Shown here piece by piece: positions 6,769 through 62,152 of a DNA stretch of 64,000 bases. Position 1 is the stretch's first letter. Each line of letters begins with the position of its first letter. The DNA lies in the NCBI RefSeq assembly GCF_004193775.1, contig NC_041021.1, positions 34,111,718 through 34,175,717 on the forward strand, in the 5' to 3' direction. Both the position numbers and the translations under genes were made by a program. Source of the stretch: Glycine soja (lineage: Eukaryota > Streptophyta > Magnoliopsida > Fabales > Fabaceae). The notes under the pieces are model-generated. The model saw only the letters and a list, made by a program, of their open reading frames with translations. It ran no database searches and was not told the origin of the DNA.

Positions 6769-6773
6769 CCCCT

Positions 6774-8131
6774 TGTTAGTCGCTATTTAGGAGTTAGTTT
6801 TATGTTGAATATTTGCATGGAAATAGCGCTTTACCTCTAAATTTTGCTTCTTTTTGTAGGAATTGTACATATTTTTCTATTTAGTGTGATTTTATAGAGT
6901 AGATACTCCCATTCTATGCATTAATGTTGAATCCAACTCAATTTTAGGCCAAAGAAGAGAAGGTTCAAGTAGCTGATGACTCGCTCAACAAGGCAGATCC
7001 GCTTAGCGAGTGACATCCACAAAGCGAGGTAGACAACTTGCTTAGCGGGTTGGGAAACCCTAGAGGAGGATCAGTTAGAGATGTGCTCACCCAGCATGCA
7101 GCCATCCCGCCCAGCGAGGTCGTTGTCTCTTCTCGCGCTTAGCGCGCCCAGTCTCACTAAGCTAAAATTCACTTACTCTTGCTTAGCGAGCTAGTCTCAC
7201 TAAGCGAGCCTTTGGAAGCTGAAAGGTCCAAGAGCCTTTAAAACACTGAAGTTGGCAGAAATAAAATATAGAGATTTGGAGAGAGCGCACAAGAGGAAGC
7301 TGAGAAGATAGAAGGAAGGTAGCTGAGAGAGCTTAGGTTAGAAGGAGTGAAGTCTAGGGTTTAGAGGTTGTAGGTGACATCCTTAAACATCCTTTGCCAT
7401 TTTCTTTCACTCAAAACTATTCCTTCCTTGTATTAAGAGATTGCATTACTTGTAATCGAAGGCTAAGCCTCTCGGTTGGGGAGTTTTGCTGAAACCTTGA
7501 TGTAACAATCTTTCATTATCCATTTAAGGTTATTTTTATGTGTTCATTGCTTCTATCTATGCTTATTTTACATGCTTGTGGCTTGATCACCCATTTGTAT
7601 GTATAGTTAGGATTTTTAGCATTGGGAAATGCTTTAAAGCCTTAGAACTTGGTAAAGCAAGCTAGAAATCTGTATGTCTAAGAATGAAGTGCAGTGATCT
7701 AGTTCATATTATGTTGTAGACTTAATGCAACTCTTTTAGACTAAGTTTGTTGAGGGATCAAGGACGAAGTTTAAAGAGAGTTAGGCTCATTCACTAGAGG
7801 GATCTTGGTTTGAGTAGTTTCTCAGCTAAGAACACTAGGATAACATTAAATAGAGAAAAATACACATTAACATCAAGAGAAATTCAGTAGAAAGACCCAA
7901 CACTTTTTACTTGATAGTTTTCACTTCCAAAATTCTAGATATTTAGTTTATATTCCAATAGACTTTAGTACAGAATTCAACTTGATATTTACTCTGCTTT
8001 TAATCCATACAAATGTTTGCATACTGAATGTACAATGTCTGAGTGAAACAAATTCTCTGAGGATATGATACTCGGTCTTACCATTTTATACTACTTGAGC
8101 GAATCGGTACACTTGCCGAAGTGCACCAACA
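6774..8131 (+). mobile_element. Athila-1 5' LTR
   Basis: 1358 bp, closely similar to the 3' LTR at 19278-20726; the main difference is a 92-bp tandem duplication present only in the 3' LTR. A cluster of GCTAAGCG-type words lies at about 6970-7205. Downstream comes a stretch (about 7230-7460) repeated almost unchanged in the 3' LTR. The close match suggests fairly recent insertion; a computed LTR divergence would date it. Confidence 0.93.
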
Positions 8132-8137
8132 AGTTTT

Positions 8138-8155
8138 TGGTGCCGTTGCTGGGGA
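8138..8155 (+). other. Athila-1 primer-binding site (tRNA-Asp)
   Basis: Eighteen bases, TGGTGCCGTTGCTGGGGA, six bases after the 5' LTR. They match the complement of the plant tRNA-Asp 3' end except for two C-to-T changes, both where the intact site at 62129-62146 has CpG or C-rich positions. Priming of minus-strand DNA synthesis starts here. Confidence 0.85.
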
Positions 8156-8293
8156 GTTTCTTTCCACTTAGATAGTATAATTCAGTTTGGAAACATTTAT
8201 TCTTTATTCTTTGATTGATTCGGTGAATAGATAGTTAGAATTCAATTTTTTCTCTTGACTTGGTTAACTGCTGCTTTGTTTAGTGCTTCTTGT

Positions 8294-9570
8294 ATGCGAG
8301 GTAATTCTTCAACAGGGAATTTAGCTCCATTAGATTCGGAGATTGAAGCTACTTGCAGGAGAAACAATGAAAAAAGGAGGAGAAAAGCTTTGCAAGAGAG
8401 GACAACACAACCAAGTTCAAGGGGAACAGTTTAAAGACATGGGAAGAAGTAGTAGAGAAATTTCTGAAGAAATGCTTCCCTGAATCAAAGATAGTTGAAG
8501 GCAAGGAAGTTATTTCATCATTCCATTAGTTTCCAGATGAATCTTTGAGTGAAGCGCTAGAAAGATTCCATAGCTTCCTGCTGAAAACACCTACTCACGG
8601 ATTCTCCGAGCCTATTCAGTTGAACATTTTCATTGATGGTTTGAGACTACAGTCCAAGCAATTGTTAGACGCTTCTGCTGAGGGAAAGATTAAGTTGAAG
8701 ATTCCAGAAGAAGAAATGGAACTTATTGAGAATATGGTTGCTAGTGATCATTCCATTTTGCATGATAGAACTCATGTTCCCACCAAAAGAAGCCTGTTAG
8801 AGCTTTCTTCGTAAGATGCATTGTTGGCATAGAACAAGCTGCTAGCTAAGCAGCTAGAATCGCTCACTGAGACACTTAGCAAGTTTCCAACACAGTTACA
8901 AGTGGCTCAACCTTCCCATTCAGCAGTTACATGGGAAATCAAAACAAACAAGGATTCCATTTAGGTGGTTTTCCAGGTTACCAGCAAGGAGGAAATTTCA
9001 ATCAAAATCAGGAGCAAGGATGAAGGTCACATCCAGGAAATCAGTTCAATAAAGACCAAGGAAGACCTTCCGACAGACCTCAGAATCAAGGGCCTAGCTT
9101 GTACGAGAGGACCACTAAGCTGGAAGAAACTTTGGCTCAGTTTATGCAAGTTTCAATGTCTAACCATAAAAGCACTAATCCAACTATCAAGAACCTGGAG
9201 ATCCAAGTGGGACAGCTAACTAAGCTAATAGCTGAGAATTCTTCTAGAGGTTTTGGAGCTAATATAGAGAAAAATCCCAAAGAAGAATGTAAGGCTGTCA
9301 TGACTAGAAGCAAGAGGGAGATCATAGTGTAGGATGAGAGTAAGACTAGTGATGAGAAGGAGTTAGAAGCTGAGGGAGAAAAAGAAAATGAGGGAGATCA
9401 GATGAGGGAGAAAAAAATAAGTGAAGAGAAAGATGAAAAAAAAGAGAAAATGAGGAAGAGAAAAAGACAAAGAGTGAGTTGGCCAGAGAAAAGAAGAAAG
9501 AGGTTGTTCCATGTATAGGGAAGGAAGCACCATATCCCTTGGTGCCATTTGAGAAGGACTAGGAATGACA
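8294..9570 (+). pseudogene. Athila-1 gag, internally deleted
   Basis: The likely start at 8294 opens a short frame rich in Arg/Lys (RRNNEKRRRK) that stops near 8431. Compared with the gag of Athila-3, about 400 bases that encode the N-terminal capsid region are missing before the block GNSLKTWEEV (about 8428). The block SLSEALERFHSFLLKTPTHG (8545 onward) and the IDGLRLQSKQLLDASAEGK region follow, with stops at about 8527 and 8812. Then come a degenerate Gln/Gly-rich region, a coiled segment (9099-9332, KLEETLAQFMQV) and a Lys/Glu-rich linker (9333-9510). No zinc knuckle is visible, unlike Athila-3. Confidence 0.8.
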
Positions 9571-10249
9571 CTTTGCTCGTTTCCTTGATATCTTCAAGAA
9601 ATTAGAGATAAGTATCCCATTTGGAGAAGCCTTGCAACAAATGCCACTCTACTCCAAGTTTCTTAAGGATCTGCTGACCAAGAAGGGCAAATATATCCAT
9701 AGTGATAATATTATGGTGGAGGGAAATTGTAGTGTTGTTATCTAGAGAATTCTTCCACCAAAATACAAGGATCCAGGGAGTGTCACAATCCCTTGCTCGA
9801 TTGGTGTTGTGTTAGTTGGAAAAGCCCTTATTGAGTTAAGGGCTAGCATTAATTTGATGCCTCTATCCATGTGTAGAAGGATTGGAGAGCTGGAAATCAT
9901 GCCAACAAGAATGACATTGCAGCTGGCAGATCTCTCAATTACAAGGCCATATGGTGTAGTGGAAGACGTGCTGGTCAAAGTGCGTCAGTTTAATTTCCCT
10001 GCAGATTTCGTGATCATGGACATTGAAGAGGATGTTGAAATCCCATTTATTTTAGGTCGTCCCTTCATGTTAACAGCTAATTGTGTGGTTGATATGGGCA
10101 AAGGTAATATGGAAATGAGTGTGGATGATCAAAAGGTTACATTTAATCTATTTGAAGCCATGAAGCACCCAAGTGACCACAAGGCCGATTTTAAGGTAGA
10201 AAAGGTTGAACATGAGGTAGACATGGTAGTGAGAGCCATGGTGCTGTAG
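9571..10249 (+). pseudogene. Athila-1 protease region
   Basis: The frame begins with ARFLDIFKKLEISIPFGEAL and leads to the aspartic protease. The position of the Athila active site (DLGASINLMP in the family, DLGANINLMP in Athila-3) reads ELRASINLMP here, so both the Asp and the Gly are changed. A stop at about 9742 also interrupts it. The downstream flap and C-terminal parts (SMCRRIGELEIMPTRMTLQL, IPFILGRPFML) are well kept. The protease would have cut Gag-Pol; this copy is dead by motif. Confidence 0.85.
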
Positions 10250-10279
10250 TCCCCACTAGAAAAAGCACTGACTAATACC

Positions 10280-11197
10280 ATGGAGTGTTTGACAACAGAG
10301 GAAGAAAAAGAATTGCAGAACTGTTTGGAAGAATTAGAGGGTTTAGAAGAAAATCCTTCTAAAAAAGTTGTATTTGAAGAATTGAAGAAGGACACTCCGG
10401 CAGAAAAGGCCAAGGTGGAGTTAAAAACTCTTCCAGAGCATATGAAGTATGTGTTCTTGGGAGAAAATGAAGCAAGTCCAGTGATCATTAGCAATTCTTT
10501 AAGAAAGAAGGAGGAATCTCAGCTAGTGGAAGTTCTGAAGAAACACAAGGCAACTATTGGATGGCATATTTCTGATCTCAAAGGAATCAGCCTTTCTTAC
10601 TGCATGCATAAGATCAACATGGAAGTTGATTATAAGCCTGTAAGATAGCCACAAAGAAGATTAAATTCGGTTATGAAGGAAGGAGTGCGGAAGGAAGTAC
10701 TTAAACTACTAGAAGTAGGTCTCATTTATCCTATTTCGGACAATGCATGGGTTAGCCCTGTACAAGTGGTTCCCAAGAAAGGAGGAATGACGGTAATCGG
10801 AAATGAGAAGAATGATTTGATTTCCACAAGAACTATCACTGGGTGGAGAATATGCATCGATTACAGAAAATTGAATGATGCCACCAGAAATGATCACTAC
10901 CCACTTCCCTTCATGGATCAAATGCTTGAAAGACTAGCTGGACAATCATTTTATTGCTTTTTAGATGGAAACTCTGGCTACAATCAGATTTTTGTGGACC
11001 CAAATGATCAAGAAAATACAACATTCACCTATCCTTTTGGTGTGTTTGCTTATAGGCGAATTCCCTTCGGTCTTTGTAACGCTCTTGCAACTTTTCAGAG
11101 ATGTATGATGGCAATATTTGCTAACATGGTGGAGAAATGTATCAAAGTGTTTATGGATGATTCTCCGTCTTTGGCTCATCTTTTGATTGTTGTCTAG
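10280..11197 (+). pseudogene. Athila-1 reverse transcriptase
   Basis: Two frames (10280-10648 and 10673-11197) cover the linker and the palm/fingers of the enzyme. Visible blocks are GLIYPISDNAWVSPVQVVPK, WRICIDYRKLN, YPLPFMDQMLERLAG, FPFG-type substrate loop (YPFGVFAYRRIPFGLCNA) and the catalytic FMDD at 11150-11161. A stop (10646-10648) splits the linker. A one-base deletion directly after FMDD shifts the frame, which then ends at 11197; the downstream thumb continues in another frame from 11212. Confidence 0.9.
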
Positions 11198-11211
11198 TAA
11201 ATCTAGAGCGA

Positions 11212-12027
11212 GTGTTGCAACGATGTGAAGAGACAAACTTGGTGCTTAATTGGGAAAAATTCCATTTTATGGTTCAAGAAGGAATTGTGTTGGGCCACAA
11301 AATCTCTGTGAGGGGGATTGAAGTAGATAAAACTAAAATTAATGTGATTGATAAGCTACCTCCTCCAGTGAATGTCAAGGGAGTGAGAAGCTTTTTAGGG
11401 CATGCTGGGTTCTACAGGCGGTTTATAAAAGACTTTTCAAAGATTGCTAAACCACTCAGTAATTTGCTCAATAAGGACGCTGTGTTTTTATTCAATGAAG
11501 AGTGTTTGAAGGCATTCAACACTCTAAAGACTAGTCTAGTGTCCGCTCCCATTATTACAACACCAGATTGGAGTCAAGAATTAGAGCTCATGTGTGATGC
11601 AAGTGATTATGTTGTAGGTGTTGTATTGGGCCAGAGGAAAGGCAGGGTCTTCCATGCTATTTATTATCCCAACAAAGTTTTAAATGATGCTCAGATTAAT
11701 TATGCCACTACAAAGAAGGAAATACTTGCAATTGTTTATGCTTTGGAAAAGTTCAAATCGTACTTAGTGGGATCAAAAGTTATTGTTTACACTGATCATG
11801 CAGCCATTAAGTATTTGCTGAATAAAGCTGACTCCAAGCCTAGAATAATTAGGTGGATTTTGTTGCTTCAAGAATTTGACCTCGTGATCCAAGACAAGAA
11901 AGGATCTGAAAATCTTGTGGCTGACCACTTGTCAAGACTAGTCAATGAAGAAGTGACTTTGAAGGAGCTAGAGATAAAAGACAAATTCCTTGATGGATCG
12001 CTGTTCATGGTAAATGAAAGGCCCTAG
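11212..12027 (+). pseudogene. Athila-1 RT thumb and RNase H
   Basis: This frame picks up the RT thumb ([23 protein letters not shown]), the connection ([19 protein letters not shown]) and the Ty3/gypsy RNase H ([53 protein letters not shown]). The acidic residues expected in RNase H (D of CDAS, E of KKEILA, D of YTDHAA, D of ADHLSR) are all present. It is cut off from the upstream RT by the frameshift near 11162. Confidence 0.9.
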
Positions 12028-12087
12028 TTCGCTGATTTGGCCAACTTTAAGGCAACTGGAATCATTCCAAAAGATTTGACTTGGTAG

Positions 12088-13317
12088 AAAAGGAAGAAAT
12101 TCTTGCATGATGCTCAATTTTATGTTTGGGGTGACCCATATTTGTTTAAAATTGGTGCTGACAACCTTCTACGAAGGTGTGTAACAAAGGAAGAAGCAAG
12201 GAGCATATTGTGGCATTGCCATAATTCACCACGCGGAGATCATTACAATGGAGACAAAGCAGCAACCAAAGTCCTACAATCAGGATTCTTTTGGCCAACA
12301 CTTTTCAAAGACGCTCATGAACATGCCACTCAATGTGATCAATGTCAACGAATGGGAGGAATCTCTAGAAGACATGAAATGCCCTTGTAGAATATAATGG
12401 AGGTGGAAGTCTTTGACCGCTGGGGAATTGACTTTGTAGGTCCTCTTCCTCCATCTTTTGGCAATGAATATATCCTTATGGCTTTGGATTACATCTGCAA
12501 ATGGGTTGAAGCAGTGGTTGCCCCAAAGAATGATGCCAAAATTGTAGTGAAGTTCTTGAAGAAAAATATTTTTGCTCGCTTTGGGGTGCCTAGGGTCCTA
12601 ATCAATGATACGGGCTCTAACTTTTGCAACAGCCAACTACAAAAGGTGCTAGGCCATTATCATGTCACACACAAAGTAGCCTCACCATATCACCCACAAA
12701 CAAATGGTCAAGCTGAAGTTTCCAACAGGGAACTTAAGAAGATCTTGGAGAAAATTGTGGCTTCAACTCGGATGGATTGGTCAAGCAAGTTGGATGATGC
12801 ACTATAGGCTTATAGGACTACCTTCAAGACCCCTAAAGGCCTGTCTTCGTTCCAAATGGTTTATGGTAAAGCTTGCCACTTACTGGTAGAAATGAAACAT
12901 AAGGCATACTGGGCTTTGAAATTCTTGAATTTTGATGAGGCTCTATCAGGGGAAAAGAGGAAGTCGCAACTCTTGGAGCTGGAAGAGATGAGATTGAATG
13001 CTTATGAGTCTTCAAGACTGTACAAAGAAAAAGTGAAGGCTTATCACAACAAGAAGCTACTAAAGAAGGACTTTAGGCCAGGCCAACAAGTTCTGCTATT
13101 TAACTCAAGATTAAAGTTGTTTCCAGGTAAGTTAAAGTCTAAATGGTATGGACCATTCACCATCAAGGAAGTCAAGCGATATGGAGCAGTGGAATTATTT
13201 GACCCTCAATCAGAAACTTCGGATAGAACATGGATAGTAAATGGTCAGAGATTGAAGCTATACCATGATGGGAACATTGAGAGACTGACCACCATTCTAC
13301 AATTACAAGACCCTTAG
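12088..13317 (+). pseudogene. Athila-1 integrase
   Basis: The zinc-binding N-terminus is visible (HCHN...H, then CDQC; about 12212-12345). A stop at 12388-12390 precedes the core. The core has FDRWGIDFVGPLPPSFG, VPRVLINDTGSNF and GQAEVSNRELKKILEK, which supply the D, D and E of the catalytic triad. A second stop at 12805-12807 lies where relatives have Trp (AL-W-AYRT). The C-terminal part (12856-13317) includes YGKACHL, HKAYWALKFLNFD and KLKSKWYGPFTIKEV, and ends with a stop at 13315-13317. Confidence 0.9.
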
Positions 13318-13549
13318 AGGTAAAAATGCGTCAAGCTAGTGAAGTTAAAGAAGCACTTACTGGGAGGCAACCCAGCTTTTTCTTTAAGTTCTCAATCATT
13401 ATTTTTTGTTCATCATTGCATATAGTTAGTTTTCAACTTATTTGAGATTGTTAGAGTCATAATTAGCATGTTCTAGTATGATAGAGCGGTTGACAAAAAC
13501 TTCTCTGAAGCAATGAATGAGGAAAGAACTTAGAAAATTTTTTAGTCAT

Positions 13550-14871
13550 CCACTCTCTCAGCGCCCCCTATGCGCTAAGCGAGCCATACCTTATGCACTG
13601 AGCGAGTACCATCTCGCACTAAGCGCACCAACCCCCACCCATTGGCTGAAGGGGTCTCGCCAAGCAAGACAATGGCGCTAAGCCCAAAAACCTCTCTAGA
13701 TTGCATTTAATGGAATTGGGCTAAGTGAGCCATCTCGCTGAGCGCAACATAGTCTCTCGCTAAGCGCGTCTGTGCGCTAAGCACAAAAAGCTCTCTGCCT
13801 AGACCCCCATGTCAATTAGGCTAAACGGGTCATACCTGCTAAGCCCAAAACTCTCTTTGGAATGGCATTGCACTAAGCAAGACCATCACGCTAAGCGTGA
13901 CCCCACTACTGCATCTTGAGGCATTTAATCCGCTAAGCCGGTCATGTCCCACTTAGTGGAAGTTGCAAACCAATCAGAGCTGCATAACTCGTTAAGCACA
14001 CACCCGTGCGCTGAGCCCAAAACCTTCTCAGGTTTTCTAATTTCCTAATTGGGCTAACCGAGTTGGTCTCGCTAAGCGCATGAGTTTAAATCTTGAAAAA
14101 TTCAAATGTCACCGAGTGCTCGCTTAGCGAGTCACTCGCGCTTAGCGAGCAGATCAAAACTGCCAAAAATAAAAAGTAACTGCCTTAGGCAGTTACCATT
14201 TGTACAAAAACATAACTTCCTACTCCCATCATTGGTAGTCATTTGCATTCTGCACTGTGCTTCCATTTGTCTGCTTCTTGCCTTCAATTCTCTCATTTCT
14301 CTGCAATCCAAGTAAGTTCTCTACTCCATTGTCATTTTAATTTTCTGAACCCTAGGATAGATGACATATTACTATGTTGTGATTCTCTGTGAATTGATAT
14401 TGTTTATGCTTCGTAATTAGTTGTTTAGATTGTATGTTTTTAGGGCTTTAGTTTAGCATATAATTTAGGTTCATTTGAAGGGTTTTACTTAGATTTCCTA
14501 TGCCTGAAAGTGGCTAGGGAGTTGAGGCTTCGAAACCCCAATTTTTTTCTGGAAAATTCAATGTACTCGCTAAGCGATATCATCCGTTTTGGATGAATTT
14601 CTGGGTTTTCAGATGAACACGCTAAGCGGGCCCTGACCCATTAAGCGAGTTCATTATTTCTGTTTAAATTTATGCATATATGTATGAACTCACTAAGCCA
14701 CTACACTACGGCTTAGTGAGCATTTAAATTTCAAGTTTTTAATTTCTGAGTTCATATGAACTCGCTAAGCCGGTATACCATGCTTAGCGAGTCAATTTAG
14801 TTAGATCTGAGTCATAGAGACTGTTGGTATTCTGGTTACGGCTAAGTGAGCCACACTCGCTAAGCCACCAT
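13550..14871 (+). repeat. GCTAAGCG/CGCTTAGC word array (Athila-1 spacer)
   Basis: Between integrase and the 3' ORF lie many copies of an 8-10-base word, GCTAAGCG or its complement, often extended to CTCGCTAAGCG or GCTTAGCGAG. They are spaced irregularly by about 15-50 bases in otherwise non-repeated sequence. Many read as pairs of opposite sense. The array continues at 16014-16440 after the solo LTR. I see no ORF with family resemblance here. Confidence 0.9.
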
Positions 14872-15423
14872 TGTTGCACCAACGGCCTCAATAACTTAAG
14901 AGGGATAGGCTTAGAATGCAAAAGAAGCAGCAATCAATTTAATAATGTTCTTTAAACATGCAAGACAAAATTGATTGCAACAAAATAAATGAGATAAGGG
15001 AAGAAAGAATGCAAACAAAATTTTTATACTGGTTCAGCAAAGTCCGTGCCTACGTCTAGTACTCAAGCAACCCACTTGAGATTTTCCACTCCCTTTGTAA
15101 AAATCCGTTTACAAAGTCTAAACCACACAGGGACAACCCATCCCTTGTGTTCAGGAATCCTTACAACTTAAGAGACCGTTAGTCCCTTAATCAATCTCTT
15201 TGAATGAGAAGAAAGAAAGAAGAATTCTCTCTTGAAGAGAACGATATTACAATTGAAGTCCATGGAGAAACTCTTAATGGATTTGCAAGTGCTTGCCCAA
15301 GAGTTTCTTTTGAGAGAGCATTTGGCAATGAAGTTCTCTTGGAATCTCTCTCATTTCCTTTTGAGAGGATAAGACATTTTGAACAAGCAAAACTCTCTAC
15401 CAATTTCGTTCCTAAGTCACTAA

Positions 15424-15429
15424 TTTATA
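15424..15429 (-). promoter_or_regulatory. Putative TATA box of the solo LTR
   Basis: TATAAA on the minus strand. The nearest palindrome centre (15506) lies 77 bp upstream in LTR sense. The equivalent distance in the Copia LTR at 52713 is 81 bp, which supports both as the same promoter layout. Confidence 0.6.
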
Positions 15430-15499
15430 GGCCTTTGATAGCCTTTCAAAATTCAAATGAAAAGCTGACTGTTGGGAATATTTTTCGAAAATCCTCACT

Positions 15500-15717
15500 G
15501 GTAATCAATTACAGCATTCTGGTAATCGATTACACGGTTATAATTTGAAGGGTCATGACTTTTGAATTTTAATTTTAGGAGTTTCGTTGCTGGTAACCGA
15601 TTACAGACATATGGTAATCGATTACATGTTCAAAATTCAAATTCAAAACCCTTTTCAACAACAATTTCTCAAACTTCCCTTCTGATAATCGATTACACTT
15701 CCTGGTAATCGATTACC
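15500..15717 (-). promoter_or_regulatory. Three paired GTAATCGATTAC palindromes
   Basis: Palindrome centres (C of the central CG) lie at 15506/15527, 15598/15619 and 15690/15710. Within-pair spacing is 21, 21 and 20 bp, and pair-to-pair spacing is 92 and 92 bp. Some sites carry single changes (TAATCAATTA, TAACCGATTA) yet keep the spacing. The array lies just upstream of the LTR's TATA box, as an enhancer would. Binding protein unknown. Confidence 0.9.
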
Positions 15718-16013
15718 AGAGCCTTGCATGACTTTGAAACCCTTTGTTTTGAGGCAAGGCTTGGTCTTGAAGAAATCTTGAATCAAGGCTTTGTTTGTTG
15801 AAGCAATCTTGTATTGATCTTGAAGAAAATGTAGCAGCCTAGTTTGATTATTCTTTGGCATCATCAAAAACATCATACATTCACATTCTCCCCCTTTTTG
15901 ATGATGACAATCAAGTGATTTCTTTTTGACATCATCAAGATATGCATGATTCATATTCTCCCCCTTTGTCAAGCAAATTCTTTTTGACATCATCAAAACC
16001 TGCATGATTTACA

Positions 16014-16440
16014 ACCATGCCTCTGAACTTTGAATAAGCCTGGGCTAAGCGAGTCTATCTCGCTAAGCCCAAGGCAATTTAGTTTTGCTGAATTTTGTTC
16101 ATGCGCTAAGCAAGCCATGCTCGCTAAGCGCAAATTCTTCTCTGTTTTAAAATTGGGCTTAACGAGCCTACTTGCTAAGCCATTTATGTTCCAGTAGTTA
16201 AGTTGCGCTAAGCGCCCACTGGCGCTAAGCCCATTTAGTGTGTCTTGCTAAGCACAATTAGCTCTCTGTTGGAGAATAAGGCTTAGCGAGCCATGCTCGC
16301 TTAGCCACTGTGTTGTTTCAGCTAGGTGAGGGTGTCTCACTTAGCCAGAGTCTTTATTTTTCAATAGCTGCACTAAGCACGCTAAGCGTATGCTGATATT
16401 TTCTTACAGCGCGCTAAGCGAGTCTGTCTCGCTAAGCGCC
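16014..16440 (+). repeat. GCTAAGCG word array, continued
   Basis: This resumes the array interrupted by the solo LTR. At least 12 copies of the word or close variants are visible in about 420 bases, for example near 16042, 16105, 16200, 16285 and 16410, in both orientations. It ends shortly before the 3' ORF. Confidence 0.88.
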
Positions 16441-16525
16441 GAGTCCTTTTTCCTGTTTTATTTTTCTGTTATCATTCTTCAATAAAACCTGTCTAACTTT
16501 TTCTATTGCGCTTCTTTTGATGCAG

Positions 16526-17840
16526 ATGGCCTCCAAAAAGAGAAAATCATCCATCTCCAGACCTCAAGAGCCATATGACACGACTAGATTCATTTCCGAG
16601 GTCGCCTGGGAACGGTATGAGCAAAACATGCATTCCAGAAACATCCTCCTTGAGAGGAATGTTGATTTGTATGTGACCCAGTATGATGAGTTCCGTAAGG
16701 AGCTCGAGAGGCAGAGATGGCATAAAACCTTGACCATGCAGCCTGATGGTCACATAGATGTGGCCCTAGTCAAGGAGTTTTATGCTAATTTATACAATCC
16801 AGAGGACAAGTCCCCTCGACAGTGCAGAGTGAGGGGCAAGCTTATAAAGTTTGACGCAGAGAAGTTGAATGCATTCGAGGAGATCCCCGTGTTTTTGGAG
16901 CCAGGGGTGCGCTACTCCACATACTCCAGGTTTTTCCGCACGCACCCGGATCCTCAGGAGCTCACTGCCAGACTCTGTATTCCAGGGCACGGTTTTGTTT
17001 TGAATGCTAAAGAAGTACCCTGGAAGCTCCTGAGGAAGGATCTTACTACTCTCGCCCAGACCTAGAGTATGCTTTCATACTCCAACCTTGCCCCCACCTC
17101 TCATATGTCCGATCTTAACATGGACAGGGTGAGGTTGGTTTACGAACTCGTTATGAAGATGGACATGGACATGGGCTCCATTATTTCCGGATAGATTTCC
17201 CAGGTGGCCCAGTCTAACTCCTCTTGGATAGGATTCCCTGCACTTATCACTGCCTTGTGCATTGCCAAAGGAGTTGTCCCAGATTCCCTCACTTTCAAGT
17301 CCTTGAGCCCTGCCATTAATTTGGAACATATCATAAAGAACTGCTAGAACCCGAATGATCCCACGATCACTTTTCTGGGTACTCACAAGACTCGGGCTCG
17401 GGGAGCTTCTAACGCCTCCACCTCTGCTCCAACTTCTACTTCAGCACCAGCTCCTACTCCTGCACCTCCACAAATCACAGCACCCTCCGGCCCCTCCGCT
17501 CAGAGCTCAGACGTTCTGGTGTCAATGCTGCAGAGCCTCCACCACAGCTTATGCCTGGTGATGCAAAGTATCCACGACCTAGCTCAACATCGGCCCATCC
17601 TTAGCATGGAGGACTTTATGGCCCAGGTGGCCTGGCCAGGAGTCCAACCTTCTCCTACGGGGGGAGGTGAGGCTCCTACAGCCCAAGAGCCACACCTAGA
17701 GTTGGAGGACACACCAGATGAGACACCAGAAGACATTCTTGCTGCCACGCCTTTGGAGGCCACAGAGGAAGGAGATGGTGCTACAGACACTGATTATGCT
17801 GCAAAGCAGCGCAAAGCACCTGGGACCCTTGGCCCACTCT
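16526..17840 (+). pseudogene. Athila-1 3' ORF (env position)
   Basis: The ORF starts MASKKRKSS at 16526. It continues with FISEVAWERYEQNMHSRNIL and VALVKEFYANLYNPEDKSPR, matching the ORF at 57681-56824 and the relic at 52297. A stop at 17063-17065 stands where the relative has Trp (AQVWS). Later frames continue to LSPAINLEHIIKNC-like sequence and a Pro/Thr/Ser-rich, then acidic tail to about 17840. The domain resembles one annotated in plants as a putative plant transposon protein. It occupies the place of the env-like ORF of Athila elements, but I see no clear transmembrane segment. TTTGATGCAG just before the ATG looks like a splice acceptor. Confidence 0.75.
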
Positions 17841-19262
17841 AGCACAGGACACACCACGGCCAGCCCAGGATGCTTCCTCCTCATCTCAGGATGACCAGCA
17901 CCGGCACAGGAGGATTGATGACAGGACACTTATTATATTTCTGTTATTTAGATTCAGTTTTAGTTTTAGTTTATTTACTTATTTAGCATATTTTACAGTT
18001 TTTTGAACAGTTTACAGTTCTTGAACTATGCACAGTGGTTTGGTTTTTAAAACATGTTTTGGTTTAAATTTTTTGGTGTTTGTTGATTGGTTTGAATTTG
18101 GTTGATTGTGTGAATTTAGTGAATTGCGATGATAGATCACATGCCTTGAATAAGTATGCGGTAGTTAGAAGAGAAAGAACATGAATTAGGGGCGTGAGTG
18201 AAAATGTTAGTTTGTTTGACAGGTAAATAGTGAAGGAAATCATTGGCTATATCCCGGTGAGATGTGTGAACTTAAATTGTGAGAAAATGACTAACATCAA
18301 GTATCATTTTTTGCATGAATCTCTGAATACTGAATGAATGCATGATTTGGAAATGATGAAGGCCATGATTGATTGATTTAGCCGCTTAGCCAAATAGCCT
18401 TACCCTGTTCATGAGTGATATAACCCTTGCACCAATTTTGACCTTGAATTTGATTGAATAAGCTGAACCCCAAGCCTGATTAAAATTATAATCTCCGTGA
18501 GACTCCGTCTACCCTTCCTTAGGTTGTAGGAGAGCATTGTGGTTCAAGGCAAATTTGTCCCAAATTTGAGGGAGAATGTTGGGTGTTTTTTATTGTGGTA
18601 AAGAAAGCAACAGCCATATAGACAATTGTTTAAAGAAGCAATAATCATAAACTGCTAAAATAAAAAATTAAAAAAAGAAGAAAATGAAAGTTTCAAGAAT
18701 AAGTAAAGCTTTGTGTGTGTTGTTGCTTGAGATAAGTGTCTTTTATACTTGTGGCATATCAATAGAAGCTGGGAATTAAAAGGAAAAGGTGATCCAAGGA
18801 TGAATGCTCTCCTAGAACCTAAGTATTGCATCCTAGAAAAACCATGAATTGTTTGTAGCCCAAGCTAAGAAACTCCTTCAGATTCAATTTGTGTGTTTGT
18901 GATTGTATGACATGATATGAAATGCAAAAGTTAAGACTTGTGTTGGTTGTTTATTTGAAGAATTCATTAAAACACTTGTGCTTATGAGAGAAACAGTGGC
19001 CATGAGGATTAAGCTTGATGAACCTTCCTTGATACCTGTCTTGCTTGCTAGCTTATTTCATCTGTGTTGCTTAATAAACATGTTCATGTCTTTGAAACAT
19101 TGCATATCTTTATGATGGGCTATTGGTTGAAGCATTGCTAGTTGTCTCCGTTCATGTGATTGAATCATGTGAAACAAACACAATTTTGGCTAACCACTGT
19201 GAATTTTTTCACTTGACGACAAATAAACTGTTATTTCATTGCTTGAGGACAAGCAAAACTGT
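17841..19262 (+). other. Athila-1 3' untranslated region
   Basis: No coding frame with family resemblance. The stretch is partly co-linear in reverse with 54886-56200 of Athila-3 (shared pieces include GGCAAATTTG and AGGAGAGCAT near 18525-18565), so it is a conserved non-coding part of the element. Confidence 0.7.
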
Positions 19263-19277
19263 AAATTTGGGGGAGTT
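19263..19277 (+). other. Athila-1 polypurine tract
   Basis: AAATTTGGGGGAGTT directly precedes the 3' LTR. The same sequence, complemented, lies at the equivalent place in Athila-3 (54869-54882). It primes plus-strand DNA synthesis. Confidence 0.85.
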
Positions 19278-20726
19278 TGTTAGTCTTTATTCAAGAGTTA
19301 GTTTTATGTTGAATATTTGCATGGAAATAGCGCTTTACCTCCAAATTATGGTTCTTTTTGTAGGAATTGTACATATTTTTCTGTTTAGTGTGATTTTATA
19401 GAGTAGATACTCCCATTCTATGAATTAATGTTGAATCCAACTCAGTTTCAGGCTAAAGAATAGAAGGTTTAAGTAGCTGATGATTTGCTCAGCGAGGAAG
19501 ATCTGCTCAGTGAGTGGCATCCACTAATCCAACTCAATTTCAAGCTAAAGAAGAGAAGGTTTAAGTAGCTGATGACTCGCTCAGTGAGGCAGATCCACTC
19601 AGCGAGTGGCATCTGCTAAGCGAGGCATACAACTCGCTTAGTGGGTTTGGAAACCCGAGAAGAGGATCAATCAGAGATGTTCTTGCCCAGTGCATAGACA
19701 GCCCGCCCAACAAGGTTATTGTCTCTTCTCGCGCTTAGCGCGCCCAGTCTCGCTAAGCCAAAATTCACTTACTCTTGCTTAGCGAGCCAGTCTCACTAAG
19801 CAAGCCTTTGGAAGCTGAAAGGTCCAAGAGCCTTTAAAACACTGAAGTTGGCAGAAATAAAATATAGAGAGTTGGAGAGAGCGCACAAGAGGAAGCTGAG
19901 AAGATAGAAGGAAGGTAGCTGAGAGAGCTTAGGTTAGAAGGAGTGAAGTCTAGGGTTTAGAGGTTGTAGGTGACATCCTCAAACATCCTTTGCCATTTTC
20001 TTTCACTCAAAACTATTCCTTCCTTGTATTAAGAGATTGCATTACTTGTAATCGAAGGCTAAGCCTCTCGGTTGGGGAGTTTTGCTGAAACCTTGATGTA
20101 ACAATCTTTCATTATCCATTTAAGGTTATTTTTATGTGTTCATTGCTTCTATCTATGCTTATTTTACATGCTTGTGGCTTGATCACCCATTTGTATGTAT
20201 AGTTAGGATTTTTAGCATTGGGAAATGCTTTAAAGCCTTAGAACTTGGTAAAGCAAGCTAGAAATCTGTATGTCTAGGAATGAAGTGCAGTGATCTAGTT
20301 CATATTATGTTGTAGACTTAATGCAACTCTTTTAGACTAAGTTTGTTGAGGGATCAAGGACGAAGTTTAAAGAGAGTTAGGCTCATTCACTAGAGGGTCT
20401 TGGTTTGAGTAGTTTCTCAGCTAAGAACACTAGGATAACGTTAAATAGAGAAAAATACACATTAACATCTAGTGAAATTCAGTAGAATGACCCAATGCTT
20501 TTTACTTGATAGTTTTCACTTCCAAAATTCTAGATATTTAGTTTATATTCCAATAGACTTTAGTATAGAATTCAACTTGATATTTAGTTTGATTTTAATC
20601 CATACAAATGTTTGCATACTAAATGTACAATGTTTGAGTGAAACAAATTCCCTGAGGATATGATACTCGATCTTACCGTTTTATACTACTTAAGTGAATC
20701 GGTACACTTGCCGAAGAGCACCAACA
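19278..20726 (+). mobile_element. Athila-1 3' LTR
   Basis: 1449 bp; starts TGTTAGTC and ends CACCAACA. It carries a 92-bp tandem duplication (19435-19526 and 19527-19618) that the 5' LTR lacks, which accounts for the length difference of 91 bp. GCTAAGCG words lie at about 19480-19805. Point differences from the 5' LTR look few. Confidence 0.93.
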
Positions 20727-28100: not shown

Positions 28101-28535
28101 ACTGTATAGTGCAGATTAAATAATTTCTTTCTAACATTAGATATTAGATTAATTGACCACAAGTGTAGAAGCAAAGCTTCATGGTGAATCAAAGGTGATT
28201 CAAAGGTGTTTTGATGATAACAATGATAACAAAAGATGATGACAAAGGAGATGACAAAAAGCTCAAAGATCAATCAAAGAACAACTCAAGTGAATCAAGA
28301 ACAGTTCAAGAGTTCAAGATAAGAATCAAGAAGAATTCAAGGCTCAAGAAGAAAGTTTAGAGTCAAGAATCAAGATTCAAGGTTCAAGATCTCAAGAATC
28401 AAGATCAATATTCAAGACTCAAGATTCAAGAATCAAGAGAAGGCTTAATCAAGAAAAGTATGAGAATTTTTTCTCAGAAATTGAGTAGCACATGATTTTT
28501 CTCAAAACATGTTTACCAAAGAGTTTTTACTCTCT

Positions 28536-28773
28536 GGTAATCGATTACCAGATTTCTGTAATCGATTACCAGTAGCAAAATTGTTTTGAAAAAGTTTTCA
28601 AATTGAATTTACAACGTTCCAATTAATTTCAAAAAGTTGTAAATGATTACAATGTTTTGGTAATCGATTACCAGTGCCTTTGAACGTTGAAATTCAAATT
28701 CAAATGTGAAAAGTCACATCCTTTCACATAAAATCCTTGTGTAATCGATTACACTAATTTGGTAATCGATTAC
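28536..28773 (+). promoter_or_regulatory. Three paired GTAATCGATTAC palindromes (B1)
   Basis: Centres lie at 28542/28563, 28644/28665 and 28746/28767: 21 bp inside each pair and 102 bp between pairs. The site at 28644 is decayed (GTAAATGATTAC) but keeps its position. The array lies 136-360 bp upstream of the TATA box. Confidence 0.92.
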
Positions 28774-28902
28774 CAGTGACTGTTTCTGAATAAATCAAAA
28801 GATGTAACTCTTCAAAAGTTTTTTACTTTTTCAAATTGGTTTTGAGTTTTTCTAAAAGTTATAACTCTTCTAAATGGTTGTCTTGACCAGACATGAAGAG
28901 TC

Positions 28903-28908
28903 TATAAA
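28903..28908 (+). promoter_or_regulatory. Putative TATA box (B1)
   Basis: TATAAA within GTCTATAAAAGCAAGG. The same word occurs in reverse at 35913-35918 and 46792-46797, each 135-136 bp from the nearest palindrome centre, so the distance is fixed in three copies. Confidence 0.7.
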
Positions 28909-29091
28909 AGCAAGGCTTTGTTTTGCATTTCAATAATCTTGAACACTTATTTCATACAATCATTTACAAGCCTTGAATCTCTTTGAACCTCTTCTTCTTC
29001 TTTGTACCAAAAGCTTTATGAAGTTTTCTGGTTTTCCAAACCTTGAAAACTTGTGCTATTCATCTTTTCATTCTCTTCTCCCTTTGCCAAA

Positions 29092-29350
29092 AAGAATTCG
29101 CCAAGGACTAACCGCCTGGATTCTTTTTGTATCTCTCTTCTCCCTTTTCCAAAAGAACAAAGGACTAACCGCCTGAATTCTTTTGTGTCTCCCTTCTCCC
29201 TTGTCAAAGAATTCAAAACGACACAGTCTGAGAATTCTTTTGATTCTTCCCATTCCCTTATACAAAAGTGTTCAAAGGACTAACCACCTGAGAATTCTTT
29301 TGTATCCCCATTCACAAAGTATCAAAGGTTTAACAGCCTGAGATCTTTGT
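29092..29350 (+). repeat. Degenerate tandem repeat in transcribed LTR (B1)
   Basis: About five units of 50-66 bases, each starting with a GGACTAACCGCCTGA-like word (near 29096, 29161, 29222, 29278 and 29330), followed by ATTCTTTTGT and a pyrimidine-rich stretch. Both strands stay open over much of it, which gives spurious ORFs. The same tract, reversed, occurs at about 35460-35720 and 46360-46610. Confidence 0.85.
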
Positions 29351-29355
29351 CTTAA

Positions 29356-29474
29356 CACATTGGAGGGTACATCCTTTGTGGTACAAGTAGAGGGTACATC
29401 TCTTGTGGATCAGTTCTAGTGGAGGGTACATCCACTAGGGTTTCAAAGAGAACAAGGGAGGGTACATCCCTTGT
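29356..29474 (+). repeat. Hairpin array with common GGGTACA centre (B1)
   Basis: Four consecutive inverted repeats share the centre GGGTACA. Perfect 8-bp stems: CTAGTGGA with TCCACTAG (29416-29438) and ACAAGGGA with TCCCTTGT (29452-29474). The first (29356-29380) pairs 7 of 9. The second (29383-29406) is a hybrid that pairs with one bulged base and looks like a fusion of two hairpins still separate in copy B3. Confidence 0.9.
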
Positions 29475-29778
29475 GGATCTTTTCTTGTAAAAGGATTTTT
29501 ACAAGGTTGAAAGAAATCCCAAGGACCGCAGGTCGCTTGGGGACTGGATGTAGGCACGGGTTGTTACCGAACCAGTATAAAAACACTTGTGTGTTTGTTT
29601 CCTTCTTCCCTACTCTTTTACTTTCCGCTGTGCATTTAATTTCCGCTTTTAATTTCTGTTAAGTTTCTCTTCTACTCCATATTCTCTTAACAACATAAGT
29701 AAAAGCCTTAGAAGAATAATTTTTTAATTAGTAAAGGTTTAGGAATAATTAATTCAACCCCCCCTTCTTAATGGTGTT

Positions 29779-34812: not shown

Positions 34813-35293
34813 TGTCGTAGAAGCACCATTTCCAGTAGTGAGTAAAAACATTTTACCTATGATAAATTATTTTTCATAATTTCAACTTATACACTATATG
34901 AAAATTTGTTAGTATCAACTACTAAAAATGTTTAATAACATAGTAAAGTCCATTACGAATTGCACTACTGTTGGATCAAGTGGCCTCGGAATAATTAAGA
35001 AGGGGGGGTTGAATTAATTATTCATAAACCTTTACTAATTAAAAATTTACTCTTCTAAGACTTTTACTATATTGTTAAGTAAATAAAGAGTAGAAAAGAA
35101 ACTTAACCAAAAGTAAAAGCGGAAATTAAAATGCACAGCAGAAATTAAAAGAGTAGGGAAGAAGGAGACAAACACACAAGAGATTTTATATTGGTTCGAC
35201 AACAACCCGTGCCTACATCAAGTCCCCAAGCGACCTGTGGTCCTTGAGATTTCTTTTCCAACCTTGTAAAAATCCTTTTACAAGCAAAGATAA

Positions 35294-35449
35294 AGAAGGG
35301 ATGCATCCTCCCTTGTTCTCTGTGAACAACCTAGTGAATGTACCCTCCACTAGAACTGATCCACGAGAGATGTACCCTCTCTTGTTCTTAGTCAAACCCA
35401 AGTAGATGTACCTTCTACTTGTACCACAAAGGATGTACCCTCCAATGTG
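35294..35449 (-). repeat. Hairpin array with GGGTACA centre (B2)
   Basis: Five inverted repeats equivalent to those of B3. On the plus strand the centre is TGTACCC in three, TGTACCT in one and TGCATCC in one. One stem has a mismatch (CTAGTGAA with TCCACTAG). Stem arms still differ between hairpins but match within each. Confidence 0.85.
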
Positions 35450-36045
35450 TTAAGATAAAGTTCTCGGGCGGTTAAACCTTTGAAACTTTGTGAATGGGGA
35501 TACAAAAGAATTCTCGGGCAATTAGTACCTTGAAATCTTTTGTATATGGGAAAGAGAAGAATCAAAAGAATTCTCAAACTGTGTCATTTTGAATTCTTTG
35601 ATAAGGGAGAAGGAAGACACAAAAGAATTCAGGCGGTTAGTTCTTTGTTCTTTTGGAAAAGGGAGAAGAGAGACACAAAAAGAATTCAGGCGGTTAGTCC
35701 TTGGCGAATTCTTTTTGGCAAAAGGAGAAGAGATGAAAAGAATGAATAGCACAAGTTTTCAAGGTTTAGAAAACCAGAAAACTTTAGAAAGCTTTTGATA
35801 AAGAAAGAAGAAGAAGAAGTTCAAAGAGACTCAGAAATCAATGTGGAAAAATTGCTTGTGTAAAGAATGAATTAGAAAAGATAGATCTTAAAATGCAAAA
35901 CAAAGCCTTGCTTTTATAGACTCTTCATGTCTGGTCAAGAGAACCATTAGAAGAGTTATGACCTTTAGAAAAACTTAAAACCAATTTGAAAAAGTCAAAA
36001 ACTATTTGAAGAGTTACATCTTTTGATTTGTTCAGAAACTATCAC

Positions 36046-36283
36046 TGGTAATCGATTACCAAATCAGTGTAATCGATTACACAAAGCTTTTTTGTGAAAG
36101 GATGTGACTCTTCACAATTTAATTTGAATTCCAACATTCAAACACACTGGTAATCGATTACCAAATCATTGTAATCGATTACAACATTTTGAAATCAATT
36201 GGAACGTTGTAAATTCAGTTGAAAGCTTTTTGAAAACCATTTTGCTACTGGTAATCGATTACAATAATCTGGTAATCGATTAC
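36046..36283 (-). promoter_or_regulatory. Three paired GTAATCGATTAC palindromes (B2)
   Basis: Centres at 36053/36074, 36155/36176 and 36256/36277: 21 bp in each pair, 102 and 101 bp between pairs. The first centre is 135 bp from the TATA box at 35918. Confidence 0.92.
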
Positions 36284-36567
36284 TAGAGAGTAAAAACTCT
36301 TTGGTAAAAGGTTTTGAGAAAAATTCATGTGCTACTCAGTTTTTGAAAAAACTTTTTAATACTTCTCTTAATTGAACCTTCTCTTGATTCTTGAATCTTG
36401 ATTTTGATTCTTGGAACTTGAATCTTGAAACTTGATTCGTTGATTCTTGAGATCATCGTCTTTGTTATCATGAATTGTTCTTGATCTTTGAGCTTTTTGT
36501 CATCACCTTTGTCATCATCAAAACTTCTTTGAATCAATCTTGATTCATCATGAAGCTTGCTTCTACA

Positions 36568-44886: not shown

Positions 44887-46190
44887 ATCTTCATCTAGGT
44901 GATGTTATTTTGCTTCCTCTATCTTTTTGTTCGGTCAATTCACTTTAATTCCTTGTTCTTCATCTTATTATCCATGTATATCCTCATTGTCTTGTGGTTT
45001 GGTTCTGTTTATAGTAGATTCAAAAAAAATAAACCGATTAAATCTTAGATCTACACTTGTTCTTGCATCTCTATGGTTCAAATTTTATAGATCTACTCTT
45101 GAATCATTTTTTTGTGTTGATTTTAGGTTCTATCATTTTTCAGTCATAATATTCTTGTGCTGAATCTTTAGATCTAAATTTTCTTCCAAAATATTTATTA
45201 GAAAAAAAACAAAAAAATCTAAGTGTAAATCACTTATTCCATGTTGTCTTAGAGTCATGTTTAGTCATAATAATTGTCACATTATGTACTAAGTTTGTGT
45301 TGAATTTTAATTTTGTTGATTGAATTCAAGATACATTTGTTCAAGTACTTTTGTCATTCTTAGCCTATCTTTTGAATTTTGAGTCTAATTCATGCATGTT
45401 ATTTAGTTCATAACATGTTCTAAATCAATTCCTAGAAGTAGTCTTGTTGTTGAACTTTGTTTTTTTTTTCTAAATGTCCTATATGATGCCTATGAAGACA
45501 TTGAGTTGTAGTGCTGAGTTGTGGCTGGATTTGTGAATCAAAATAAGTCTTAAGCTCTCTTGAATTGTGTTATTCAATATAATTAAGCATAAGCAAACAA
45601 AAATTGTAACTATCCCAGCCTTAAGCAACATAAACACTACTCTTGATTTCTAGGTTGAAATCGCTGGTGCTGGCAGCTTGAACATATGAACATGTATAAA
45701 TTCCTGGGAATTGGTCACTACGAATTTTGAGCTAAAATTTTTACTAAATTTTCTAGACATCTGGACCAAAATTATAAAAAAGAACAAAATGATTTGGATA
45801 AAATTAAAAACTACGAAAAATCACACAAGTTGGAAGAAAAATCAATGTTCAGGAAAAAAAAAGTGAAAGGTGTTGGATCAAGTGGCCTTAGAATAATTAA
45901 GAAGGGGGGTTGAATTAATTATTCCTAAACCTTTACTGATTAAAAATTACTCTTCTAAGGCTTTTACTAAGTTGTTAAGAGAATAAGCAGTAGAAGAAAA
46001 ACTTAACAGAAAGTAAAAGTGGAAATTAAATGCACAGCGGAAATTAAAAGAGTAGGGAAGAAGGAGACAAACACACAAGAGTTTTTATACTGGTTCGACA
46101 ACAACCCGTGCCTACATCTAGTCCCCAAGTGACCTGCGGTACTTGAGATTTCTTTCAACCTTGTAAAAATCCTTTTACAAGCGAAGATCC

Positions 46191-46345
46191 ACAAGGGATG
46201 TACCCTCCCTTGTTCTCTTTGAAACCCTAGTGGATGTACCCTCCACTAGAACTGATCCACAAGAGATGTACCCTCTCTTGTTCTCAGTCAAATCCAAGTA
46301 GATGTACCCTCTACTTGTACCACAAAGGATGTACCCTCCAATGTG
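46191..46345 (-). repeat. Five-hairpin array with GGGTACA centre (B3)
   Basis: On the plus strand every centre is TGTACCC. Left arms: ACAAGGGA (46191), CTAGTGGA (46227), ACAAGAGA (46259), CAAGTAGA (46295), each with a perfect 8-base complementary right arm. The fifth (46321-46345) pairs 7 of 9. Spacing between hairpin starts is 32-36 bases for the first four, then 26. Confidence 0.93.
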
Positions 46346-46926
46346 TTAAGACAAAGTCTCAGGCGGTTAAACCTTTGATACTTTGTGAATGGGGATACAA
46401 AAGAATTCTCAGGCGGTTAGTCCTTTGAATACTTTGGTATAAGGGAAAGGGAAGAATCAAAAGAATTCTTAGATTGTGTCGTTTTGAATTCTTTGACAAG
46501 GGAGAAGGGAGACCAAAAGAAATCAGGCGGTTAGCCCTTTGTTCTTTTGGAAAAGGGAGAAGAGAGACACAAAAAGAATTCAGGCGGTTAGTCCTTGGCG
46601 AATTCTTTTTGGCAAAGGGAGAAGAGATGAAAAGAATGAATAGCACAAGTTTTCAAGGTTTAGAAAACCAGAAAACATTGGAAAGCTTTTGGCACAAAGA
46701 AGAAGAAGAAGTTCAAAGATATTCAAGGCTTGTAAAGGATTGTATAAGATTGATTGGAAAAGTGTATTGAAAGGCAAATCAAAGCCTTGCTTTTATAGAC
46801 TCTTCATGTCTGGCCAAGAGGACCATTTAGAAGAGTTATAACTTTTAGAAACACTTAAAACCAATTTGAAAAAGTCAAAAACCTTTTGAAGAGTTACATC
46901 TTTTGATTTATTCAGAAACAATCACT

Positions 46927-47164
46927 GGTAATCGATTACCAAATCAGTGTAATCGATTACACAAGGCTTTTATGTGAAAGGATGTGACTTTTCACATTTG
47001 AATTTGAATTTCAACGTTCAAAGGCACTGGTAATCGATTACCAAAACATAGTAATCGACTACAGCTTTTTGAAATTAATTGGAACGTTGTAAATTCAGTT
47101 TGAAAACTTTTTCAAATCCATTTTGCTACTGGTAATCGATTACAATAATCTGGTAATCGATTAA
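46927..47164 (-). promoter_or_regulatory. Three paired GTAATCGATTAC palindromes (B3)
   Basis: Centres at 46933/46954, 47035/47056 and 47137/47158: 21 bp in each pair, 102 bp between pairs. The first centre is 136 bp from the TATA box. Confidence 0.92.
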
Positions 47165-48315
47165 CAGAGTAAAAACTCTTTGGTAAACATGTTTTGAGAA
47201 AAAATCCATGTGCTACTCAGTTTTTGAAAAAAACCTTTTCATACTTATCTTGATTAAGCTTTTTCTTGATTCTTGAATAGCCTTTTCTTGATTCTTGAAT
47301 CTTGAGTCTTGAATCTTGATCTCTTGAATCTTGATTCTTGAATTCAACTTTCCTCTTGAATCTTGAAGTGTTCTTGATTCTATCTTGAACATCTTGAACT
47401 CATTCTTTGATTGACCTTTGAGCTTTTTGTCATCACCTTTGTCATCATCTTTTGTTATCATCTTTGTTATCATCAAAACATCTTTGAATCACTCTTGATT
47501 CACCGTGAAGCTTTGCTTCTACAAAAGGAAAGTGTGCTTGTTGTTTTGGCTCAAAATTTATTCTATAATTGGTGCCTATTTTATACCAATCTTAGTTTTG
47601 AAATTTCAATTGAAAATTAGTGTGAATACAAGTGCCAAAACTAGAGGTTTCTTGAGTCTTTTTTTTTAGTTTTTCTACTCTACTCTAGAGTCATTCTAGG
47701 TTTCTCTTTGAGTCCTAGCTTGCTTTTATGTGCTTGTCATTGCTTTAATTGTTGAATAATCCTTAAAAATTTGTCTTGATAAAATTCTATTGGTTTAGCT
47801 TTCATTTCATTTTTTTTTGTCTTTGATTATTGCTTGTCTCTTTGTTTCCTTGTTTTTGAGTTGCCATATAGGGAATTGCAAAGGAGGATTGGTGTCATCC
47901 CTTTAAGAATTTGAGTCAAGAAGCAAGGGGTCAACCACCTTAAGAGCTATTGGACTAAGAAGCACTCCAAATTGAGTGAATCACCAAAGAGAGAACAACC
48001 ACCAATAGGTCATCCTACTTCCATTTGTGTGTAATAATTTTATGAAATTTTCCCTTAGGATAGTGAGTGTTTTGTTGGGAACCTTAAATGAGGTCATCCA
48101 AACACTCTTAGGAACCGCCTAGTTTACATTTCTTTCACTTTAATTTCTTGGTTACTTTCATAGCTTATTTTCTTTACTAGTCACACCTAGCTTATCTTGT
48201 TATTGCATAATACTTTCTTCATGCTTATCACGCTTATCTTGAGTTCTTATGGAACCCTAGCTTTTACCTTTTTTTCAAACCCCCAACAAGAAAGAACCAC
48301 AACTTAGGAACCAAC

Positions 48316-53161: not shown

Positions 53162-53234
53162 AGTGATGAAATTTCAAAAATAACTCTGAAAAGTCACAAC
53201 TCTTCACAAGTTTTTCGAAAGGTCACCAAAGGCC

Positions 53235-62146: not shown

Positions 62147-62152
62147 AAAACT

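Follow-up and report, generated by a model that had tools for sequence, protein, structure and literature searches.

The five arrays of palindromes described here lie in five long terminal repeats (LTRs) of a 64,000-nucleotide stretch of Glycine soja DNA (NC_041021.1, positions 34,111,718 to 34,175,717; hereafter the window), and we read them, with a probability of roughly 0.7, as promoter-proximal cis-regulatory arrays in the U3 region of Sirevirus-type LTRs, composed of sites for a dimeric protein that are phased by whole turns of the DNA helix. Each palindrome, whose full site is roughly TKGTAATCGATTACMA, would be bound by a symmetric (dimeric) sequence-specific DNA-binding protein. With two turns between the members of a pair, and mostly three, five, seven, eight or nine turns between pairs, bound dimers would align on one face of the DNA, where they could interact with one another or with a shared partner beside the TATA box; they may bind cooperatively and control LTR transcription, and the arrays might then be called enhancers. 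A protein of this kind would account at once for the conservation of the sites, their symmetry, their 10.25-bp period and their position by the TATA box, whereas an RNA stem would explain the symmetry alone, and common descent would explain the sharing of the arrays and not the whole-turn differences between dissimilar spacers.

Searching the window for the 12-bp palindrome with up to three mismatches gave 42 matches, compared with 21.1 +/- 5.1 in shuffled sequences, none of 100 of which reached 42. Thirty of these matches make up five arrays, one per LTR with six sites each, and comprise 21 exact sites, eight with one mismatch and one (at 28639) with two. The arrays, assigned to a family B and to two further LTRs, A1 and A2, are as follows.

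28537 to 28773, forward strand: array B1, three pairs (28537/28558, 28639/28660, 28741/28762), all at 21 bp
28903 to 28909, forward strand: TATA box of B1
36048 to 36283, reverse strand: array B2, six exact palindromes in three 21-bp pairs
46928 to 47164, reverse strand: array B3, three 21-bp pairs
15501 to 15716, reverse strand: array A1, three pairs at 20, 21 and 21 bp (LTR orientation)
52946 to 53160, forward strand: array A2, three pairs at 19, 21 and 21 bp

An earlier note on this DNA, made from the sequence alone, had described five LTR arrays of three palindrome pairs each, and this is confirmed: the spacing within a pair is 21 bp in 13 of the 15 pairs, the two exceptions (20 bp in A1, 19 bp in A2) being the first pair, in LTR orientation, of their arrays. 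Its figures for the distance from pair to pair (101-102 bp in family B, 91-92 bp in the A LTRs) were likewise reproduced, as were those from the last palindrome centre to the TATA box, which lies downstream of the array in all five LTRs (135.5-136.5 bp in B, 77.5-80.5 bp in A). The intervals between pairs are 81 and 81, 80 and 81, and 81 and 81 bp in the B arrays versus 71 and 71, and 72 and 70 bp in the A arrays, so that both intervals differ by about 10 bp between A and B. Within the window, the 9-bp spacers inside pairs do not have clearly fewer indels than other parts, and the window alone is therefore no proof of a constraint on spacing.

The LTRs that contain the arrays, together with the signals adjoining them, are given below.

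28164 to 29771 (end approximate), forward strand: LTR B1, Sirevirus-type, truncated at its 3' end, starting TGTAGAAGC, 88% identical to B2 and 93% to B3
34969 to 36567, reverse strand: LTR B2, a solo LTR flanked by a perfect 5-bp target-site duplication, GTAGT
45871 to 47523, reverse strand: LTR B3, a solo LTR flanked by a perfect 5-bp target-site duplication, CCTTT
14870 to 15885 (left end approximate, by eye), reverse strand: LTR A1, 3' LTR of a Sirevirus fragment, inside a Ty3-type element
15888 to 15895 and 15958 to 15965, reverse strand: two AGGGGGAG polypurine tracts adjoining LTR A1, two of the six matches of this octamer in the window
52713 to 53482 (start by eye), forward strand: LTR A2, first part, cut by a nested Ty3-type element
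63587 to 63894, forward strand: LTR A2, second part, with the poly-C signal and then CA / AGTGG / primer-binding site TATCAGAGC (the latter at 63886 to 63894)

These LTRs carry hallmarks of Sirevirus-type (Ty1/copia) elements, a class assignment drawn from the features present in the window, where no part of these elements coding for reverse transcriptase was found. In the excerpts of Bousios et al. (2010, PMC2829016) used here, the hallmarks are a polypurine tract AGGGGGAG 10 bp before the 3' LTR and present in several copies, a junction of 5' LTR and primer-binding site reading CA / A(T or G)TGG / TATCAGAGC, a TATA box near the middle of the LTR and a poly-C signal at its 3' end. The polypurine tract can be looked for in only one of the five LTRs (those of family B being solo or truncated, and A2 having no 3' side in the window), and there, at A1, it is present; the nearer copy is followed by AA/TG, versus AT/TG in PMC2829016. 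The junction is found at A2, the one LTR in which that part is preserved, in the form CA AGTGG TATCAGAGC. The TATA box is placed about mid-LTR, as in that account, in all five LTRs; a poly-C run is present in B1, B2, B3 and A2 and, by eye, none was seen in A1. The homology of B1 to B2 and B3 ends past the poly-C signal. We considered B2 and B3 as the two ends of one element and rejected this, each having a target-site duplication of its own. The Ty3-type element that hosts A1 has LTRs at 6773-8131 and 19277-20726, and the one that splits A2 at 53483-54869 and 62153-63568. In both, which may be Athila-like, the two LTRs share about 94-95% identity along most of their extent; open reading frames of the first (6773-20726) match RVT_1, RNase H and PF20167, and those of the second (53483-63568) Retrotrans_gag and PF20167.

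The sites are conserved across LTR families that have otherwise diverged. In the five-array alignment 63 of 72 palindrome columns are invariant versus 64 of 187 others (31 with gaps, 156 gap-free), and between families the palindromes are 93-96% identical against 50-61% for the intervening DNA. A1 and A2 (94% in palindromes, 58% outside them) are as distinct from one another as either is from B. This disposes of recent tandem copying with equal conservation throughout, which the earlier note had set against its own reading, and supports its suggestion that the palindromes are kept across LTR families. Family B by itself shows little contrast (94-97% versus 88-95%), with lower divergence in the palindromes than in the rest of the LTR in two of three LTR comparisons (p 0.013 and 0.028) and no such lowering in the third (p 0.65), as would be expected if selection acts on active elements and their copies, once dead, decay neutrally. 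Spacers at the same position in different families (B1, A1, A2) resemble each other with z of 1.8-6.6 over nine comparisons; spacers compared with other units of the same LTR give 0.6-3.6, also over nine comparisons and overlapping the first range, and spacers at non-matching positions between families give -0.3 to 3.8. Since spacers are on average closer to their counterparts across families than to their neighbours within an LTR, the three-pair layout is probably older than the LTR families.

We scanned the whole genome (1,013,641,977 bases, 1.01 Gb) for exact palindrome pairs, pooling sites inside and outside LTRs and counting pairs that enclose a further site; all counts are lower bounds for repeats. 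There are at least 36,286 pairs at 19-23 bp, at least 15,848 at 24-53 bp (at least 566 of these at 33-48 bp), at least 1,677 at 54-69 bp and at least 32,959 at 70-85 bp, and the reversed-pattern control gave zero in seven of seven genome searches. Exact distances come from the matches listed, which lie on contig C1 and, for the 33-48-bp search, also on C2. Among 50 places listed at 19-23 bp, 16 are at 20 bp and 34 at 21 bp, so that the genome-wide 21-bp peak anticipated by the earlier note is found as a 20/21-bp peak. The 50 listed at 24-53 bp, near-copies included, fall at 29 (3), 31 (7), 50 (3), 51 (17) and 52 bp (20). Among the 50 listed at 33-48 bp, judged by eye, 35 are at 40-43 bp (18 at 43, 11 at 42), many of the listed 42-bp distances being two 21-bp steps; a preference for about four turns thus shows even in this thinly populated bin. 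Many composite distances of 64 and 69 bp occur among the places listed at 54-69 bp, and a few off-phase values (77, 78 and 83-85) among those at 70-85 bp. Four- and six-turn spacings (the 33-48 and 54-69-bp bins) are thus rare, though pure phasing would permit them.

Another way to view the spacing is through individual arrays, for which we drew on 49 sources: the window, L130, L132 and L134-L179 (L131 and L133 were dropped as repeats of L130 and L132). L134-L153 are blind stretches taken at 20 Mb of each of 20 large contigs (L148 being all N), and in seven of these 20 there are two or more sites carrying no more than one mismatch; L154-L169 were picked from the listed 19-23-bp pairs and L170-L179 from the listed 24-53-bp spacings. 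Sites were accepted with up to two mismatches within 130 bp of an exact site, and distances of 110 bp or more were excluded. Of 219 adjacent distances, 123 are within pairs, at 19 (1), 20 (26), 21 (95) and 23 bp (1), and 96 are between pairs. Ninety of the latter fall at 29-31 (11), 50-52 (21), 70-73 (35), 80-81 (21) and 91-92 bp (2), and the other six, once each, at 35, 57, 62, 68, 83 and 85 bp, of which 35, 57, 83 and 85 are out of phase. The secondary peaks guessed at in the earlier note extend to a series near 30, 51, 71, 81 and 91 bp. After dereplication at 70% spacer identity, 23 of 27 distances deviate by less than 0.2 turn from an integral number of 10.25-bp turns, where about 40% would be expected to do so, a value that no jittered set reached (0/3000; p 0.012 without the 69-74-bp class). 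All-pair distances, from 28 distinct spacing vectors among the 36 arrays with at least four sites, give a sharp peak at 10.25 bp, and none of 1,000 sets with jittered inter-pair distances reached the observed value. Together with the genome counts, this quantisation supports the proposal that the sites share one helix face. Families share ancestry, so the effective sample size is small. CTATAAW within 300 bp is absent in 12 of 26 rows of sampled arrays, some of the stretches being short. Arrays in L152, L154, L167 and L176 hold 10 to 12 palindromes and mix inter-pair spacings of 31, 51/52 and 70/71 bp.

A variant of the same explanation would place the sites on one face of a nucleosome, the period of about 10.2 bp being a rotational setting and not the result of dimer contacts on naked DNA. 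The twist of nucleosomal DNA is nearer 10.2 bp per turn and that of free DNA nearer 10.5, and the mean cosine of the all-pair distances is 0.70 at 10.25 bp, clearly above the 0.33 at 10.4 bp. However, because the distances take only integer values and may include an offset, the fitted period is no independent measure of twist, and we consider this variant rather unlikely.

The period also bears on the rival view that one ancestral array was copied, with spacing devoid of function and selection acting on the sites alone or on nothing. All arrays may be homologous, and descent is consistent with the rarity of four- and six-turn spacings and with the unremarkable frequency of indels inside pairs in the window. 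Moreover, the significance fades under harder dereplication of spacers: at a 65% cut p is 0.008 (n = 17), or 0.10 without the 69-74-bp class, and a first, smaller sample gave p 0.002 at the 70% cut (0.48 without that class, n = 13) and 0.38 at a 60% cut (n = 9). Against it, the spacing classes of different families (about 30, 51, 71, 81 and 91 bp) differ by approximately whole turns while the spacer sequences are dissimilar, both window intervals shift by about 10 bp between A and B, and jittered nulls do not reproduce the period. We therefore regard descent alone as improbable.

A further possibility is that the palindromes act as structure, in the U3 RNA at the 3' end of the transcript or as cruciform DNA, and are templates for small RNAs, as has been proposed for Sireviruses of maize, whose palindromes are small-RNA hotspots in the excerpts of PMC5311732 and PMC10760457. 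The B1, A1 and A2 arrays do fold far better than shuffled sequences (z -10.5, -5.2 and -7.4), although good folding is automatic with repeated self-complementary words. In 13 of 18 B sites, versus one of 12 A sites, the flanking bases are symmetric at -1 and -2 alike; over 190 sites, however, symmetry exceeds expectation only slightly at these two positions (101 vs 85.7; 108 vs 87.5) and falls below it at -3 and -4 (54 vs 64.5; 53 vs 60.5). Similarly, in each of the three B LTRs the inner spacer of pair 1 is complementary to that of pair 3 (p 0.009-0.016, uncorrected), which is not so in A1 or A2. What is conserved in the site is its sequence, beyond its symmetry, and an RNA stem does not predict quantisation at 10.25 bp. 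A structural role thus appears very doubtful, and the spacing data favour dimers of a protein bound along one face of the DNA over a hairpin in RNA. The symmetric B flanks come in different versions, TG/CA, TT/AA and GT/AC.

The 190 sites, which do not include those of L170-L179, also delimit what such a protein would read. Of these 150 are exact. Position -1 has G (103) or T (78) in 181 and C in none; at +1, 179 sites have A or C, and at -2, 124 have T. GGTAAT is a GT-2-type half-site, and the frequency of T at -1 led us to reject it as a requirement. The CpG positions carry 19 of the 43 mismatches, so dead copies decay fastest there, which suggests that they are methylated. In family B the palindrome CpGs are kept in 17 of 18 cells versus 35 of 51 elsewhere (p 0.03, or 0.18 with majority-CG sites only); given the excess of mismatches at CpG over all sites, we do not claim that palindromes are protected from methylation.

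The earlier note had likened the palindrome to homeodomain/HD-Zip sites, and the binder might be a known HD-Zip III (or I/II) factor on a relaxed site, which would be compatible with the dimer explanation and concern only the identity of the factor. The half-sites GTAAT and ATTAC agree with the HD-Zip III consensus GTAAT(G/C)ATTAC (excerpts of PMC10598176). That consensus, however, has one central base where the palindrome has two (CG); paired HD-Zip III 11-mers gave no matches genome-wide, a zero that alone is no proof of rarity, against the tens of thousands of 12-mer pairs at 19-23 bp; and position -1 is constrained as well. The palindrome is therefore not a standard HD-Zip site, and a known HD-Zip factor seems a poor candidate.

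Many arrays contain a second dyad box, RM2, which has the following occurrences in the window.

53098 to 53117 and 53187 to 53206, forward strand: RM2-like copies of the second dyad box, TGAAGAGTCAYAACTCTTCA, four mismatches at most
15546 to 15565 and 36095 to 36114: further RM2-like second dyad boxes

RM2 is present in 29 of 39 sampled arrays. At up to four mismatches it has 49 matches in 20,328 bp near arrays versus four in 262,464 bp elsewhere, an enrichment that denotes association and not independent origin, the motif having been derived from such arrays and its copies being related. It is conceivable, and we put it forward tentatively, that a previously undescribed regulatory code is common to many Sirevirus families in this genome, consisting of a 16-bp dimer site repeated at intervals of whole turns together with the second dyad box. 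One factor dedicated to this code, encoded by the host or by the element and perhaps acting against silencing or binding nucleosomes, would then read it and, over tens of thousands of copies, coat the LTR promoter along one of its faces.

Sireviruses are already known to carry palindromes in several copies upstream of the TATA box, the repeated motif (RM) boxes (PMC2829016); what is new is the present motif, its helical quantisation and the second dyad box. Like the arrays here, RM boxes in the excerpted account are palindromic and multi-copy, form clusters in the LTR on the upstream side of a conserved TATA box, and stay conserved while the surrounding LTR diverges. All but one have a CGG-CCG core and most have CpG islands, whereas the present palindrome has neither: its core is AATCGATT, and CpG observed/expected is 0.35-0.46 in the B LTRs and 0.38 in the window. 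RM boxes are palindromes repeated upstream of a TATA box, as here, in at least eight copies per element; the window LTRs have six each, and sampled arrays reach 12 (L167, L176). The only non-CGG RM in Table 3 of PMC2829016, that of tobacco Tnd-1, ACAATCGATTGT, shares the central AATCGATT and likewise has no CpG island; its outer bases differ, and paired Tnd-1 motifs gave no matches in this genome, although zero matches alone is no proof of rarity. Since our motif, like that of Tnd-1, lacks both the CGG-CCG core and the CpG island, we call it a variant of the RM boxes. The excerpts of PMC2829016 say nothing of helical spacing between the boxes, their RM table does not include soybean SIRE1-1, and their authors were unable to name a common binding factor. 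Maize Sirevirus palindromes also cluster in the LTR regulatory region but are highly variable in the excerpts of PMC5311732 and PMC10760457, whereas here one 12-mer is fixed across families. Tnt1 box I is a symmetric regulatory box in a copia-type LTR too, though of a different element (excerpts of PMC2829016).

Neither the motif in a plant LTR nor helical phasing of LTR palindromes was found in the literature as judged by titles and the openings of abstracts, a search in which subscription papers were mostly not covered. We know of no helically phased pairs of Tnt1 box I.

The function of the Sirevirus palindromes was left open in 2010, with a call for promoter tests (excerpts of PMC2829016). 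The significance of a 10.25-bp spacing code is that it makes function directly testable, predicting recognition by a protein and not by RNA, a dimer, and sensitivity to half-turn changes in spacing. The palindrome pair is moreover a single bait sequence, present in great abundance, with which to search for the factor, and with so many exact pairs in one genome, whatever reads them could influence much of its repeat-rich DNA.

Palindrome pairs gave no matches in IMG/VR, where two single-site patterns matched 2 and 8 contigs. The same 12-mer is paired at no fewer than 119 loci in prokaryotes, where 86 of the 121 spacings counted are 30-32 bp, and is there probably an unrelated bacterial operator. 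All 80 titles listed are bacterial or archaeal, many of them Enterobacterales by title, and one such pair (L040:6567-6609) lies at the upstream end of an open reading frame for a nucleoside H+ symporter.
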